DNA of 20,347 bases from a virus. Shown piece by piece: positions 2,107 through 13,990 of this stretch. A program made the translations under genes and the position numbers. The notes beneath the pieces were generated by a model that was given only the letters and a program-made list of their open reading frames with translations, made no database searches and had not been told where the DNA came from. Location of the stretch: positions 1-20,347 of the IMG/VR virus record IMGVR_UViG_3300032093_001048; one strand, written 5' to 3'. Every line of letters starts with the position of its first letter. Position 1 is the first letter of the stretch.

Positions 2107-2484
2107 ATGTTATTAGACAAAAAAATGTTGATTAATTTTATACTTGATTTAAAAGGTTTCGGATTTGATGAAGAAACAATAAAACAAATAAAAAATGAAA
2201 TTAATGATGGAGCATTCGATTCATACGACCCAAATTTAATTAATAAAAGAATGAAAATATTTGAAAGAATTTCAATTGAAAGAGAAAGACAGGATGATTT
2301 ACACGAATTCCCGACTGAAATACGTTTAGCAGTATTGACTGAAGAAGTTGGAGAAATCGCAAAAGAATTGCAAGAAAGACACTATGAGGGAAAAGACAAA
2401 TTTCATTTGATCATTGAATTAATACAAACAGCCGCAGTATGCGTAAGGTGGATTGAAGAGTTAGAAAAGGAGATGAAACTTTGA
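2107..2484 (+). CDS. MazG-like NTP pyrophosphohydrolase
   Basis: A 125-residue protein starting at ATG 2107 after TTTGGAGG (ends 2100). Residues 52-118 carry the phage MazG-like pattern: ERISIERERQDD, then LTEEVGEIAKEL with the metal-binding EEVGE at 79-83, then ELIQTAAVCVRWIE from E104. These all-alpha enzymes cleave nucleoside triphosphates to monophosphates, often to remove non-standard or surplus nucleotides. The first 50 residues are an extra helical region of unknown role. It is immediately followed, with a four-base overlap, by the ParB-domain gene, so it may work with the DNA-modification genes, though this is only inferred from position. Confidence 0.72.
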   Translation: MLLDKKMLINFILDLKGFGFDEETIKQIKNEINDGAFDSYDPNLINKRMKIFERISIERERQDDLHEFPTEIRLAVLTEEVGEIAKELQERHYEGKDKFHLIIELIQTAAVCVRWIEELEKEMKL

Positions 2485-2966
2485 AAATTATTTATAAACA
2501 AATCAGCGAATTAATCCCGTACATCAACAATCCGAGGAAGAATGATCATGCAGTTGATGCGGTGGCGTCATCTATTAAGAATTTCGGGTGGCAACAACCT
2601 ATTGTTATAGACAAACAAAATGAAGTCATAGCAGGTCACACGAGGCTTAAAGCGGCGCAAAAACTTAATCTTAAGGAAGTGCCTTGCTATGTTGCGGAAA
2701 ATCTAACAGACAGCCAAATTAAAGCGTATAGAATCACGGACAATAGAGTGAATGAAGAATCAAATTGGGATTTCGATTTACTGAAGATTGAATTGCAAGG
2801 AATCGATGAATTTACAGGGTTCAGCAAACAAGATATGAAGATGTTTGAATCATTAAAATATGAAGAAATACCCGAAAAGATATTTGATGAAGTCGATCAG
2901 CCTGAAGAAAAAAAGATAAAATGCCCGAATTGTGGACATGAAGATAAAAAGAGTAAATTCAAATGA
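2481..2966 (+). CDS. ParB-domain protein, possible DpdB-like partner
   Basis: A 161-residue protein starting at TTG 2481, which overlaps the previous stop (TTGA) and follows AAAGGAG by about eight bases. Residues 1-105 form a ParB/sulfiredoxin-like domain: ELIPYINNPRKN, then QQPIVIDKQNEVIAGHTRLK with the GHTR signature at 52-55. A DNA methylase often follows this domain in phages, but here there is only a short tail ending in CPNCGHE, half of a zinc ribbon. It overlaps the DpdA-like gene by four bases (ATGA). In bacterial dpd systems the ParB-like protein DpdB works with DpdA, so this could be a reduced counterpart. Other ParB-like roles, such as DNA nicking, remain possible. Confidence 0.72.
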   Translation: MKIIYKQISELIPYINNPRKNDHAVDAVASSIKNFGWQQPIVIDKQNEVIAGHTRLKAAQKLNLKEVPCYVAENLTDSQIKAYRITDNRVNEESNWDFDLLKIELQGIDEFTGFSKQDMKMFESLKYEEIPEKIFDEVDQPEEKKIKCPNCGHEDKKSKFK

Positions 2967-3706
2967 AAATATTCCTATCAGCACTTGAACAGTCGTTAAG
3001 ATTTCAATACATTGATCAGCGCATTGATGCTTATTATTTTAATCTATTGAGTTATTATTACTTAAAAGTCGATATTATGAAGCGAATAGTGGATAAATCG
3101 CAAGAAGTATTGATTGACAGTGGAGCGCATACATTTCAAAAAGGCAAGAAAGTTGATTGGGAATCATACACGAATAGATATGCTAATTTTATAAAAAATA
3201 ATGATCATGACAAAATTTTAGGATATTTTGAAATGGATATTGACCCCGCAGGATACTCATTAAATTATGTTAATCGACTTAAAATAATTTTACAGTCAAA
3301 AAGCAAAAAAATCATTCAAGTTTGGCATAAAAACAGAGGAATTAAAGACTTTATTGAAATGTGCAAAAACCCGATACACGAAAGAAATGTTGTTTCAATT
3401 TCGGGATTTAAGAATCAAGACATAAAAGACAAGGATTTTATTAAATTCGTTAATTATGCTCATTATTGCGGATGCACAATTCACGGATTAGGCATAACAC
3501 GTAAAGACATATTGAGTTCAGTTCCTTTTGACTATGTTGATTCATCATCTTGGGTTCAATGCGGAATATTCGGTAGAGGGTACAATCACGCGGAAACGTT
3601 GAAATTTAATCGAAATTACACATCAAAAACAAACAATCATTTGCATTTGATGTATAATAATTATCTTGAAGGCATGAAATTGCAAGAAGAATATTTGATG
3701 AAATGA
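2963..3706 (+). CDS. dpdA: DpdA-like 7-deazaguanine DNA transglycosylase (TGT fold)
   Basis: A 247-residue protein with a pattern of the tRNA-guanine transglycosylase superfamily as seen in phage DpdA proteins. It has DSGA at 52-55 (the DSGG/DSGA base-binding motif), EMDID at 90-94, HGLG at 174-177 and YVDSSSW at 191-197. In the family, the aspartate of this last motif is the expected nucleophile (D193 here). The zinc-binding C-terminal cysteine cluster of tRNA enzymes is not evident, and the protein is shorter than bacterial TGT (about 370-380 residues). DpdA enzymes swap guanine in DNA for a 7-deazaguanine such as preQ0. The start overlaps the ParB gene (ATGA), and the preQ0-type transporter follows. 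A tRNA substrate is less likely but not excluded. Confidence 0.8.
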   Translation: MKIFLSALEQSLRFQYIDQRIDAYYFNLLSYYYLKVDIMKRIVDKSQEVLIDSGAHTFQKGKKVDWESYTNRYANFIKNNDHDKILGYFEMDIDPAGYSLNYVNRLKIILQSKSKKIIQVWHKNRGIKDFIEMCKNPIHERNVVSISGFKNQDIKDKDFIKFVNYAHYCGCTIHGLGITRKDILSSVPFDYVDSSSWVQCGIFGRGYNHAETLKFNRNYTSKTNNHLHLMYNNYLEGMKLQEEYLMK

Positions 3707-3746
3707 TGGTTCGTAAAATCCCATTCAAAACTAAGGAGAAGATGTC

Positions 3747-4409
3747 ATGAATACTTTATTGTTTTTTATTACAATTTTATTGAATTTTAGTTTGATGCTA
3801 GTATTTTACAGAATGTTCGGTAAAACAGGGTTATTTGCTTGGGTTGGAATATCAACAATTATATGCAATATTGAAGTACTGAAAACAATTGAATTATTTG
3901 GGATGATCACAACACTAGGAAACGTTATGTATGGAAGCATATTTCTAGCTACAGACATATTAGGCGAAAAATATGGAAGAAAAGAAGGACAAAAAGCAGT
4001 CATTATTGGGTTCGTATCATTAATTGCGTTTACGTTAATCATGCAAGTTAATTTGATGTATATCCCACATACAAGCGATTTCGCAAATCCACATCTTGAA
4101 GCATTATTCTCAATATTGCCTAGGATTGCAATTGCTAGTCTAACAGCTTATATAATATCTCAAATGATTGACACTTATTTATATGATCTTCTGAAGAATA
4201 GATTCAAAAAGCCTTGGGTAAGTACAAATATTTCAACATTGATTTCGCAGTCAATAGACACAACAATATTTACAGCAGTAGCATTTATAGGTGTATTCCC
4301 GAATGATGTATTAATATCGATATGGGTTAGCACATTCGTATTGAAGTTTATAATCACTATTATGGGAACACCATTCTTATATGCGTCATTCAAAATAAAA
4401 AGCAAATAA
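3747..4409 (+). CDS. yhhQ: YhhQ/VUT-family queuosine precursor transporter
   Basis: A 220-residue membrane protein with about six hydrophobic segments. Residues 57-80 (LGNVMYGSIFLATDILGEKY and the following GR) match the conserved core of YhhQ (DUF165, VUT family), and SQSIDT near residue 168 is the second family signature. Characterised members import preQ0 and preQ1, or queuine in some bacteria, across the inner membrane. AAGGAG at 3733-3738 places ATG 3747 as the start. It lies 40 bases after the DpdA-like gene and just before the terminase genes. Its likely job is to feed the transglycosylase with free base when the phage lacks biosynthesis genes. None are seen here, but they could lie outside the window. 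Confidence 0.9.
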   Translation: MNTLLFFITILLNFSLMLVFYRMFGKTGLFAWVGISTIICNIEVLKTIELFGMITTLGNVMYGSIFLATDILGEKYGRKEGQKAVIIGFVSLIAFTLIMQVNLMYIPHTSDFANPHLEALFSILPRIAIASLTAYIISQMIDTYLYDLLKNRFKKPWVSTNISTLISQSIDTTIFTAVAFIGVFPNDVLISIWVSTFVLKFIITIMGTPFLYASFKIKSK

Positions 4410-7402: not shown

Positions 7403-8851
7403 ATGCTTAAAAACATCTATAAAGACGTGATCAAAGACTTTGGAACACGAACATTTAATGATATTCAGTCAAGAGCGACCGAAATCAAAGCGAATAATAA
7501 ATTCAGTCTATTAACAGAAGATATTCAAAATTATATTGATGATGTCACAGCGGATAAAGTCGTTATGATCTCAGAAACAACAAAGAAAGATATTAAACGA
7601 ATTGTAGCAAAAGCGATTGAAGAAGGTAAAAGCATACCCGAAACTGAAATGATGATTGATGGATTGTATCTTGATCAGATCATTCCTAATAGAAGCAAGA
7701 CAATAGCACGTACTGAAGTCGTATCGGCGTCAAACTATGGGAGCATAGCAGGGGCGAAACAAACGACATCGAAACTAAATAAAATATGGATTCCAACATT
7801 CGATGACAGTACAAGGGAAAGTCACTTGGCAATGGCAAATCATCCGCCTATTGCACTAGATGCAATGTTTAATGTCGGAGGATTTTATGGACAACAGCCA
7901 GGCGATTTTGCATTACCTGCAAGTGAAGTTATTAATTGCAGATGCGCTATAGGTTACGATTATGCGCCTGTTGTTCAGATGCCTCCGCAAGCATTGCCGT
8001 TACCCGAAGTTCAACCTAGAAAAATATCGATAGAAGAATTAGATAATTATGAGGAATTGTTAAAAAATTTAAATCAACCTAATTATTTTTACGGCAATGG
8101 AAAAGAAAATTTATTAAATAAAGCATTATTTAAAAAATTGGGTTATGATGGAAAACCAAATGTTGTTAATACAGAAACTTTAAATAAATATATCGAAGAA
8201 ACTGATTTATTCGGTTACCGTGGTTTACCTAAACAAGAATTTGTAGAATCTTTAAAAAGAGGTGAATATTTTTCGGGTACTGGATATTTTGGTTCAGGAA
8301 CATATTCCACAATAATTAATAAAAAAACATTAAGGGAATTCGGTATAATTGATGATGAAAAAATAAATGAATTGAAAAAAAGTAGATATGGAACGGCGTG
8401 GGGATATGCAGGTAAAAAAGATGAGGGAGTTTCTAAATTTGCTTTATCAAAAACATTTAAATATGCAACGTTTGAAGAAATGACGGAAAAATCTAGAAAT
8501 TTAATTGAAGAAAATGAAAATAAATTAAGAGAAGCATTAAAAAATTTTAATACTAAAGATTTGATAAAAATAAATGAATCATTAGAAGGAATTATCGAAG
8601 AATATGATGAAAAATATATTAAAAAATATATTAGAGCGACTAGAAGAATAAAAGGAATTGAAGAAATAGATAAACTTATAGTTAAATTATATGGGGCGCA
8701 AGATGTTGGTACATTAGCTATACTCGAAGGATATGACGGTTTATATATTGAGGGAAAAGAATTTATGGTAATATTTAATCGAACAAAGATGATTATCGAT
8801 GAAGAAACAGGAAAGAAATGGAGGGTTAATAATGGAGCCGGAATTAAGTAG
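7403..8851 (+). CDS. MuF head morphogenesis protein with C-terminal ADP-ribosyltransferase-like domain
   Basis: The frame from ATG 7403 gives 482 residues, but the same frame is open and coding-like back to about 7229. Residues 95-183 are a MuF/SPP1 gp7-like minor head domain: ARTEVVSASNYG, then the TRESHLAM pattern with H141, PGDFALPASE and the closing INCRC at 177-181. Residues about 223-475 resemble ADP-ribosyltransferases of the kind fused to MuF proteins: GYRGL with R273, GTGYFGSGTY at 292-301, then LEGYDGL near 441-447 and FMVIFNRTKMI. Such proteins enter the head, and the extra domain may be delivered to the host as a toxin or effector. The catalytic glutamate cannot be assigned with confidence. 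The domain is much more A+T-rich than the MuF part. Confidence 0.82.
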   Translation: MLKNIYKDVIKDFGTRTFNDIQSRATEIKANNKFSLLTEDIQNYIDDVTADKVVMISETTKKDIKRIVAKAIEEGKSIPETEMMIDGLYLDQIIPNRSKTIARTEVVSASNYGSIAGAKQTTSKLNKIWIPTFDDSTRESHLAMANHPPIALDAMFNVGGFYGQQPGDFALPASEVINCRCAIGYDYAPVVQMPPQALPLPEVQPRKISIEELDNYEELLKNLNQPNYFYGNGKENLLNKALFKKLGYDGKPNVVNTETLNKYIEETDLFGYRGLPKQEFVESLKRGEYFSGTGYFGSGTYSTIINKKTLREFGIIDDEKINELKKSRYGTAWGYAGKKDEGVSKFALSKTFKYATFEEMTEKSRNLIEENENKLREALKNFNTKDLIKINESLEGIIEEYDEKYIKKYIRATRRIKGIEEIDKLIVKLYGAQDVGTLAILEGYDGLYIEGKEFMVIFNRTKMIIDEETGKKWRVNNGAGIK

Positions 8852-12538: not shown

Positions 12539-12590
12539 GGCGTGGATAGATTGCGCAATCGAAAAGCGGTTTCCCTGCCGTTTCCACGCC
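12539..12590 (+). ncRNA. Predicted three-way-junction RNA element
   Basis: The sequence between the small virion gene and the glycosyltransferases folds on paper into a closing stem of eight pairs (GGCGTGGA at 12539-12546 with TCCACGCC at 12583-12590). Inside it are two hairpins. One is a perfect 12-base palindrome, GATTGCGCAATC (12549-12560). The other is AGCGG/CCGTT (12565-12569 with 12578-12582, including one G-U pair). No T-run follows, so it is not a standard terminator. It could be an mRNA-stabilising 3' structure, a processing site or an unknown RNA. The whole gene-free gap is 12532-12623. Confidence 0.5.
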
Positions 12591-12601
12591 TAAATAAGGG
12601 A

Positions 12602-12623: not shown

Positions 12624-13259
12624 ATGACAAAAGTAATGATCGGCATTCCTGTTCATCGGGCGATTGAGTTTAAGGTGTTTGAAAGTTTTATCAGGATGTT
12701 AAATTTAAGACGTGATCATGAATTCGAATTCTGTATGGTTTCAAATTCGCTTATATATGACGCACGTGAATACATTGCGAATGAATTCTTGAAAAGTCAG
12801 AATGAATATTTGATGTTCATTGATTCGGATATGACGTTTCATCCGCAGTCAATAGACTTCTTATTAAGACATCAAAAAGAATTCGTTACAGCAAAAGCAT
12901 TCAAGCGAGTAAAGCCATATCAACCTTGTTTTTATACAAAAGTCGAATATATCGACAATGTGCCTAATCTTGAAACGCCTGTTCAATACGGAGAAGGATT
13001 ATTGCCTATTGAAGGAGCAGGACTAGCATGCGCACTCATCAGCAGAACAGCATTTGAAAAGATTCAATCTCCTTACTTCTTTCCTTATCCTAATGTCGGG
13101 GAGGACTTGACATTCTGCTTAAAGTTAAAAGATGCAGGGGTTAAAATGTATTGTGACACAACATTGCAATTCGGTCATCTCGGATATGTCGAAATATTCG
13201 AACAACATTTTGTTGAGGAATATACCAAACTTGCACAAGCGCAGGAGAATAAAGAATGA
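12624..13259 (+). CDS. GT-A glycosyltransferase 1
   Basis: A 211-residue protein with a GT2-like (GT-A) pattern. It has a nucleotide-binding start (VMIGIPVHR), a DSD metal motif at 67-69 in LMFIDSDMTFHP, GEDLTFC with E160 and D161, and a late histidine H185 (LQFGHLG) that often binds the metal. Such enzymes move a sugar from a nucleotide donor to protein or another sugar. Its place after the capsid genes suggests glycosylation of virion proteins, as reported for some actinobacteriophages. It overlaps the related second enzyme by four bases (ATGA). Confidence 0.82.
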   Translation: MTKVMIGIPVHRAIEFKVFESFIRMLNLRRDHEFEFCMVSNSLIYDAREYIANEFLKSQNEYLMFIDSDMTFHPQSIDFLLRHQKEFVTAKAFKRVKPYQPCFYTKVEYIDNVPNLETPVQYGEGLLPIEGAGLACALISRTAFEKIQSPYFFPYPNVGEDLTFCLKLKDAGVKMYCDTTLQFGHLGYVEIFEQHFVEEYTKLAQAQENKE

Positions 13260-13990
13260 AAATTCTAATAGGTTCTCCCGTCAAACAAGACGAAAAGATA
13301 TTTAAATATTATCTTAAGTCACTTTCAAACTTAAAATGTGATCATGAAATTGATTGGTTTTTTATTTTGCATAATTCGCCTGAATTAAAAAAATACTTGA
13401 AGCCACATCAATATGAAGAATATATCAATCAAACACAATACGCAGTAGAAAAAACACATATATGGAAAAAAGATAATCTAAAAGACGTTACGATCATGAA
13501 AAATTATTTACTCAAAAAAACACTAGAAGAAAACTATGATTATTTTTTCCTTGTTGATTCGGATATTATCTTGAACCCAAAGACATTACAGCACTTGATC
13601 AATCAACGACAGAAAATCATATCGGAATTATTCTGGACATCTTGGAACCCGAATGAAGAACAAATGCCGAATGCTTGGGATTATGATTACTATGCATTCA
13701 GCAAAGATAGAGATTGGTTAAAATACAAACAAAAAGAAGTTTGGAAAGTCGGCTACAGCGGCGCAGTCATCTTGATTCATCGAGATGTCATTGCCGCAGG
13801 AGTTAATTATACTCCTATATATAATGTATCATTCAGTAATTGGGAAGATAGAGCATTTTGCATACGAGCCGCGGTTCATGGATTTCAAGTCACAATGGAT
13901 ACAAATTATCCTGCTACTCATCTATATAGAAAAGAGGATGTTGAAAAGTATGAAGCACAATGTCATATGCAGATTTCACGGAAAAATTGA
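13256..13990 (+). CDS. GT-A glycosyltransferase 2
   Basis: A 244-residue protein related to the preceding enzyme. It shares the start (ILIGSPVKQ), a DSD motif at 101-103 in FFLVDSDIILNP, an ED pair at 197-198 (NWEDRAFCI) and a late histidine H222 (ATHLY). It is longer in the first third and has tryptophan- and tyrosine-rich stretches around 126-165, probably the acceptor site. The two enzymes may add successive sugars, or glycosylate different proteins. The coupling (ATGA) supports joint production. Confidence 0.78.
   Translation: MKILIGSPVKQDEKIFKYYLKSLSNLKCDHEIDWFFILHNSPELKKYLKPHQYEEYINQTQYAVEKTHIWKKDNLKDVTIMKNYLLKKTLEENYDYFFLVDSDIILNPKTLQHLINQRQKIISELFWTSWNPNEEQMPNAWDYDYYAFSKDRDWLKYKQKEVWKVGYSGAVILIHRDVIAAGVNYTPIYNVSFSNWEDRAFCIRAAVHGFQVTMDTNYPATHLYRKEDVEKYEAQCHMQISRKN

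Follow-up and report, generated by a model that had tools for sequence, protein, structure and literature searches.

From where does a phage that would exchange guanine in its DNA for a 7-deazaguanine base obtain this base, when genes for its synthesis are not seen beside the exchanging enzyme? The question is raised by IMG/VR virus record IMGVR_UViG_3300032093_001048, the whole of which (20,347 bases, part of a tailed-phage genome) constitutes the window analysed here. An earlier note had described in it a ParB-domain protein, a DpdA-like transglycosylase and a YhhQ-family transporter, read together as a compact system importing 7-deazaguanine and inserting it into phage DNA. The three genes were confirmed at 2481–2966, 2963–3706 and 3747–4409, on the same strand and upstream of the terminase genes, and family scans agree with the three identities (PF02195 and phrog_620, phrog_887, and TIGR00697/PF02592, respectively). 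A fourth part, absent from the earlier note, is a riboswitch-like element. The four features are as follows (TGT, tRNA-guanine transglycosylase):

2481–2966, + strand: ParB N-domain protein, 161 amino acids; TTG start codon, preceded by AGGAG and overlapping the preceding gene's stop.
2963–3706, + strand: short DpdA-type transglycosylase (predicted), 247 amino acids, with a TGT barrel; its start overlaps the ParB stop (ATGA).
3702–3740, + strand: PreQ1-I riboswitch-like element (RF00522, 24.2 bits), in the 40 bases that separate dpdA from the transporter gene.
3747–4409, + strand: YhhQ/QPTR (Vut_1) queuosine-precursor transporter (predicted), 220 amino acids; TIGR00697, PF02592.

We consider that these parts form a cassette for 7-deazaguanine DNA modification fed by salvage, with a probability of roughly 0.75.

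The enzyme is the central piece. Its motifs stand exactly where they had been placed (DSGA at 52–55, HGLG at 174–177, YVDSSSW at 191–197). The protein matches phrog_887 (‘queuine tRNA-ribosyltransferase’, E 8e-30), as does the phage 9g DpdA (E 2e-98), and a profile comparison with the latter by hhalign gave a probability of 98.5% (E 1.7e-15), with His174 aligned to the hallmark His196 of the 9g enzyme. Approximately 70 DpdA relatives were collected from viral contigs by scanning with the protein and then with the alignment, and seven more from GTDB genomes (on contigs from assemblies of Clostridia, Lentilactobacillus senioris and Methanobrevibacter); they are designated below by L numbers. His174 is present in 69 of 70 relatives, and D52, G54, E90, D92, K116, H122, G177, D193 and W197 are invariant in all 70 aligned sequences. 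The AlphaFold2 model (pLDDT, the predicted local distance difference test, 93.1) contains eight strands in barrel order, the catalytic-type aspartates D52 and D193 ending strands 3 and 8, respectively. Foldseek alone ranked other barrels above the TGTs, and re-alignment with VIA-align moved the latter to the top of the solved structures (human, Thermotoga and Zymomonas enzymes; Z 15.4 over 239 residues). Structure prediction thus bears out the TGT fold of the 2963–3706 protein. A sequence search of the PDB returned no relative of it, and profile comparison with two tRNA TGTs revealed only the DSG motif in common, so that the TGT assignment rests on the structure and on the 9g DpdA.

Such a fold also suits another task, in which enzyme and transporter would raise queuosine-type modification of the host tRNA and thereby aid phage translation, the DNA being left untouched. 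Indeed, preQ1 riboswitches normally control genes of tRNA queuosine (PMC11625349), and a tRNA TGT is encoded in all seven host genome assemblies examined. The hosts, however, thereby already own a true TGT, whereas the phage enzyme gave no match to PF01702 (Pfam TGT) up to E 0.1, has none of the CxCxxC zinc motif of tRNA TGTs (0 of 70 relatives), is akin to the DNA-acting DpdA and is coupled to a ParB gene whose product would engage DNA. We thus hold salvage directed at tRNA to be unlikely, and the missing PF01702 match and zinc motif speak against a tRNA-guanine transglycosylase identity. The DpdA2 type, marked by loss of the conserved histidine (PMC6884629), is likewise ruled out by the presence of His174. 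Judging from its homology to the 9g enzyme with His174, its modelled TGT fold and the lack of both zinc motif and PF01702 match, the 2963–3706 product is a short 9g-type DpdA, neither a tRNA TGT nor a DpdA2. This kinship with 9g DpdA suggests that it would insert 7-deazaguanine into DNA, DNA being the acceptor.

The second-best structural match is Cap10 of the cyclic oligonucleotide-based antiphage signalling system, CBASS (9ntn, Z 15.3), and a TGT-family enzyme remodelled for handling protein-bound 7-deazaguanine has been described (PMC11996544). The phage protein could accordingly act on a protein, for instance on its ParB partner, as in type IV CBASS. Yet most cassettes are without a Cap9-like QueC, and the sequence kinship is with phage DpdA (phrog_887), making protein deazaguanylation highly improbable. 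A search of PDB sequences with the A1 profile did not retrieve Cap10 up to E 10.

That the enzyme belongs to a larger unit is seen from its neighbourhood. Among the 67 relatives with enough flank, a ParB gene stands just upstream of dpdA in 61 (the profiles being built from these loci) and a supply gene lies within 4 kb of dpdA in 65, and in 48 of the 67 ParB–dpdA pairs measured the ParB stop codon overlaps the dpdA start. The same order recurs in relatives spanning 29–60% G+C, which argues against a chance grouping, and is kept in Clostridia, Lentilactobacillus and Methanobrevibacter contigs. ParB, DpdA and supply gene are thus a conserved cassette, found in dozens of phages. The adjacency of ParB and DpdA reported in the earlier note stands, while its treatment of ParB as a mere neighbour does not, as this gene belongs to the cassette. 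One could still see in ParB a packaging or replication gene and in DpdA a host-fed relic like that of phages 7-11 and Orion, since a ParB gene is often present where DpdA is missing and DpdA-only phages exist (PMC6884629). Against such chance neighbours stand, besides the recurrent order, the overlapping codons, the retention of all active-site residues and the supply gene so regularly at hand; we regard this explanation as quite improbable.

What, then, would the ParB protein do? Its sole Pfam match above cut-off is ParB_N (PF02195, 37.9 bits, cut-off 26.3), next to a phrog_620 match (E 2.8e-53), and it is devoid of the ParB helix-turn-helix and C-terminal dimer domain. GHTR replaces the GERR box of ParB, and a CPNCGH knuckle lies in its C-terminal part. 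Its AlphaFold2 model (pLDDT 86) is an N-domain of the ParB/Noc/sulfiredoxin type, with ParB/Noc N-domains as best Foldseek matches (E 1.6e-6). In isolate phages, the nearest relatives of the domain mostly stand at the head of DNA methyltransferases, which gives it the look of a front module of DNA-modifying enzymes; PADLOC returned MTase_II only. By analogy, we propose that it may be a DNA-engaging nucleoside triphosphatase (NTPase) acting as partner of DpdA. An identity as DpdB of the DndB type (DGQHR) was rejected: this is also the ParB superfamily, but ParB_N is the one Pfam match and the motif reads GHTR. A C-x-x-C half zinc knuckle near the C-terminus (window approximately 2898–2966) was observed in 58 of 67 relatives; since DpdA is without the zinc site of tRNA TGTs, this knuckle may dock on DpdA. 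In Faecalibacterium phage FP_Taranis (L091) and at 76807–78595 of Fusobacterium phage phiFN37, ParB-like genes adjoin a gene resembling 3′-phosphoadenosine-5′-phosphosulfate (PAPS) reductase (IbrA/IbrB type), possibly a further coupling of the ParB domain with a modification enzyme.

The origin of the base is addressed by the third gene. Its product scores 203 bits with TIGR00697 (cut-off 51) and 138 bits with PF02592 (cut-off 27), from which import of a queuosine precursor (preQ0, preQ1 or queuine) is predicted. In agreement with the earlier note, which had seen no synthesis genes, the 20,347-base window gave no match to QueC or QueD in a search where phage 9g was positive, and none to QueE, FolE or QueF with profiles built for this analysis. 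Across relatives, the position next to dpdA behaves as a slot. In the 36 relative records of 30 kb or more, we counted PF02592 (YhhQ) in 28, PF06177 (QueT) in three, QueD in five, FolE in four and QueC above cut-off in four; every record (36/36) held exactly one type of supply, YhhQ in 28, QueT in three and de novo synthesis genes in five. The chance of such an exclusive pattern would be 2e-8 if the records were independent, which they are not. On the DpdA tree, parsimony required at least seven changes of supply type (four of the synthesis label and three of the QueT label), and fewer if only well-supported branches are considered; the slot has therefore been refilled repeatedly. QueT is found directly 3′ of dpdA in L036, L046, L079 and L081, and QueF-II in L032 and L037, followed there by QueC/D/E/FolE genes. 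QPTR/COG1738 and QrtT/QueT were the only two transporter families known for salvage of queuosine precursors in a 2024 survey (PMC11130926), and both occupy this slot. L045 was an exception in having none of them. As for the hosts, beside the tRNA TGT found in each of the seven assemblies, canonical QueC was detected in only three of them, these metagenome-assembled genomes being incomplete; several hosts therefore appear to be salvagers of queuosine precursors.

The short gap ahead of the transporter gene carries the fourth part of the cassette. ATGG (3706–3709) pairs with CCAT (3721–3724) as helix P1, enclosing the loop TTCGTAAAATC (3710–3720); P1 begins inside the dpdA stop codon, and the Shine-Dalgarno sequence AAGGAG (3733–3738) lies within an A-rich tail. 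The type I signature, as set out in PMC11625349, is complete: UU (3710–3711) after the 5′ strand of P1, UC (3719–3720) before the 3′ strand, and C3731 in the A-rich tail. The RF00522 match to 3702–3740 has an E-value of 9.8e-5 over the whole record with this one family, and of 0.0051 over 251 nucleotides with all 4227 families; at Rfam gathering thresholds the element was not detected, being seen only in the permissive search of the short cassette region. In 2.57 Mb of fetched sequence (both strands), the type I core pattern occurred only in the window, in near-identical relatives and in L046, where the element lies just upstream of QueT (E 0.0031). In other relatives, this position is taken by a type II-like element, and RF00522 matched in five of five gaps examined singly. 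A covariance model of the type II-like element, built from 11 relatives, gave 21 matches with E < 0.05 in 1.0 Mb, and the positions checked coincided with the transporter start. Covariation was counted on the type II-like subset (A6), a MAFFT alignment of all element types (A5) being out of register and not used: four of the six P1 pairs showed double changes, a level reached in 0 of 500 shuffles, for these type II-like relatives only. A loose pattern of hairpin, A-rich stretch and Shine-Dalgarno sequence preceded 27 of 54 Vut genes; among genes of other kinds, it preceded 11 of 1565. The minimum-energy fold of 3698–3750 is not stable (z 1.59) and was not used as evidence; such instability may be expected of a ligand-dependent pseudoknot. 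An RF00522 match in L004 (E 0.0015) was rejected, the 3′ strand of P1 being missing. The best reading of these sequence features is a putative riboswitch of the preQ1-I type giving feedback control of the importer by the imported base.

Taken together, the parts suggest the following course of events. The YhhQ/QPTR protein would take up preQ0 or preQ1, queuosine precursor bases produced by other cells. The ParB-domain NTPase would bind or open the phage DNA and hand it to DpdA, much as the ParB-like DpdB aids DpdA in bacterial Dpd systems, and DpdA would remove guanine through a covalent Asp intermediate and put the 7-deazaguanine base in. With the pool of base filled, the riboswitch of the preQ1-I type would fold over the Shine-Dalgarno sequence and turn translation of the transporter off. 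DNA altered in this way would withstand restriction by the host. The genes present and their order, the folds, the conserved residues, the exchange of supply modules, and the RNA element with its location were computed here; from them we infer all activities, transport, ligand, exact base, the role of ParB, DNA as acceptor and restriction resistance. Since neither DUF6884 nor QueF is found in the 20-kb window, the predicted DNA product is dPreQ1 or dPreQ0. By analogy, preQ1 would be made in QueF-bearing relatives, and dPreQ1 is known from the DNA of Dp-1 (PMC6884629). The import-and-insert reading of the earlier note found support in all computational checks (TGT fold, homology to 9g DpdA, transporter score, supply swaps and preQ1-type element).

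Several points weigh against a salvage-fed cassette under riboswitch control. The absence of synthesis genes holds for the 20,347-base fragment, and such genes could lie beyond it. YhhQ stands beside synthesis genes in MS1 and Vid5 (better-known phages, both with a long DpdA) and in HCTV-16 and Vibrio 2.275, hence YhhQ by itself does not mean import only, and the exclusive supply pattern is a feature of the short-DpdA cassette. Two short fragments (L065 and L075) hold YhhQ with a lone QueC, and no QueD, QueE or FolE in the fragment; an earlier intermediate, 7-carboxy-7-deazaguanine, might be imported there. The role suggested for ParB is drawn from adjacency and analogy. The 24.2 bits of the RNA element fall below the Rfam gathering score of 39 for RF00522, and in L004, the closest non-identical relative, only a decayed remnant without P1 is left. 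Because of this decay, and because no PreQ1 match at E ≤ 1 is detectable in the cassette of phiFN37, the element is common but not essential. Finally, the DpdA-only phage Orion has no modified DNA (PMC6884629).

How far does this cassette depart from known systems? Phage 9g DNA carries deoxyarchaeosine, and 76 DpdA phages without synthesis genes are known, for which uptake was proposed (PMC6884629). Hutinet et al. (2019, PMC6884629) also noted YhhQ in certain phages and saw it correlate with none of their groups. A homologous transglycosylase with the conserved histidine is common to the window, to phage 9g and to the DpdA-only phages (their group 3); the latter are likewise without synthesis genes, and YhhQ occurs in some phages. 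The enzyme is shorter here (247 versus 317 amino acids in phage 9g), and the overlapping ParB gene, the adjoining exchangeable supply gene (YhhQ, QueT or synthesis) and the preQ1-type riboswitch element distinguish the present cassette. The earlier note had considered a three-gene form without synthesis genes as noteworthy; its compactness is confirmed, whereas the missing genes alone are not new, since DpdA phages without them, some with YhhQ, were already described (PMC6884629).

Bacterial Dpd systems comprise DpdA, the ParB-like DpdB and the DUF6884 protein DpdC (PMC12839542, PMC11888242). Their DpdA works with DpdB, a ParB-like ATPase perhaps dispensable in some clusters (PMC12839542), and YhhQ is present in approximately 9% of bacterial dpd islands (PMC11888242). 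Both kinds of system combine a TGT with a ParB-superfamily protein, and DUF6884 is added in relatives L061, L075 and phiFN37. The phage-borne version is compact, no restriction genes being apparent within the 20,347 bases of the window, and has a ParB_N protein with GHTR instead of a DndB-type DpdB; the analogy between ParB and DpdB is strong, yet this protein would not be a DpdB of that type.

Among isolates, phiFN37 (OR492271, L093), a complete genome of 85 kb, has the same order of ParB, DpdA and YhhQ, and no QueC above cut-off, QueD or FolE was found in this complete genome. It differs by a DUF6884 gene between DpdA and YhhQ, by a DpdA approximately 30% identical to the family profile and by the undetected RNA element. 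In mycobacteriophage CRB2, the open reading frame beside dpdA was suggested by its authors to be a ParB-superfamily DpdB homologue (PMC6392294); CRB2 contains the preQ0 synthesis genes queC, queD and queE, and in the part of that account available to us a transporter or riboswitch is not described. Bacterial preQ1-I riboswitches (RF00522) ahead of queT or yhhQ (PMC11625349) resemble the present element in UU/UC signature, tail C, Shine-Dalgarno sequence in the tail and downstream transporter. Here, the element is phage-encoded, paired with a predicted DNA transglycosylase and scored under the Rfam cut-off.

As far as these tools show, three aspects are new: the conserved cassette of ParB, short DpdA and supply gene in phages of Clostridia, lactobacilli and Methanobrevibacter; a supply slot taken by one or another of three unrelated modules; and a phage-borne preQ1-type riboswitch. 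Phages are not mentioned in a review of preQ1, and no paper with preQ1 was among the first 15 listed in a literature search for phage preQ1 riboswitches, which is not proof of absence. To our knowledge, this would be the first case of a metabolite-sensing riboswitch gating DNA modification in a phage.

If salvage feeds this modification, phages of anaerobic communities would shield their DNA with a base made by others, and their fitness would be tied to queuosine precursors shed by other microbes. A phage preQ1 riboswitch, if real, would couple nutrient sensing to DNA modification. A wider proposal, to which we give slightly less than an even chance, sees a widespread cassette making DNA hypermodification dependent on a micronutrient supplied by the community: a ParB NTPase would load a minimal DpdA, the slot for YhhQ, QueT (a subunit of energy-coupling factor, ECF, transporters) or synthesis would be freely exchanged, and the riboswitch would fit uptake to demand, preQ1 possibly being the base inserted. 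The exchangeable slot offers a genetic handle on the base used by each DpdA. A function is also suggested for the many phage ParB-domain proteins: they would engage DNA on behalf of base-modifying enzymes, as fusions with methyltransferases in other phages and as a separate protein here. Minimal ParB–DpdA pairs may become small tools for DNA base exchange.

Several variants of the cassette were observed. It occurs in likely archaeal viruses or proviruses (L013, L084 and L085, from Methanobrevibacter assemblies or close to them, and L007/L008); in L007/L008 the transporter gene lies upstream on the opposite strand. A short-chain dehydrogenase gene and an unassigned gene for approximately 279 amino acids are inserted between dpdA and transporter in L039, L042 and L062, possibly for further tailoring of the base; the riboswitch-like element of L062 has remained next to the transporter gene. 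The dehydrogenase is also present in L011, L067 and L081, the last of these being a cassette prophage in Lentilactobacillus senioris. A DUF6884 gene, encoding the domain of bacterial DpdC, directly follows dpdA in L061, L075 and phiFN37, whose DNA may contain the amide dADG (2′-deoxy-7-amido-7-deazaguanosine), as predicted from this domain.

Elsewhere, the window encodes portal, protease and capsid of the HK97 type and a PBSX-type terminase. The nearest relatives of the large terminase subunit (TerL) are Marinitoga viruses (50%), and that of the capsid is a Streptomyces phage (33.6%). The Mu gpF-like head protein at 7403–8851 has a C-terminal part of approximately 270 amino acids that contains YRG ... 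GTGYFGSGTY; judged by eye, this part is similar to an ADP-ribosyltransferase domain, with no Pfam family above cut-off over it. An int-alpA RNA (RF02996, 41.7 bits, gathering score 35.8) lies at 12539–12600, flanked by the capsid-region genes on one side and a glycosyltransferase-like gene on the other. Two such genes (phrog_1574) directly follow the capsid genes at 12624–13990; Anp1 (PF03452) is above cut-off in the second only, and the first weakly matches a phage DNA glucosyltransferase family. Their predicted products could target modified DNA or the virion.

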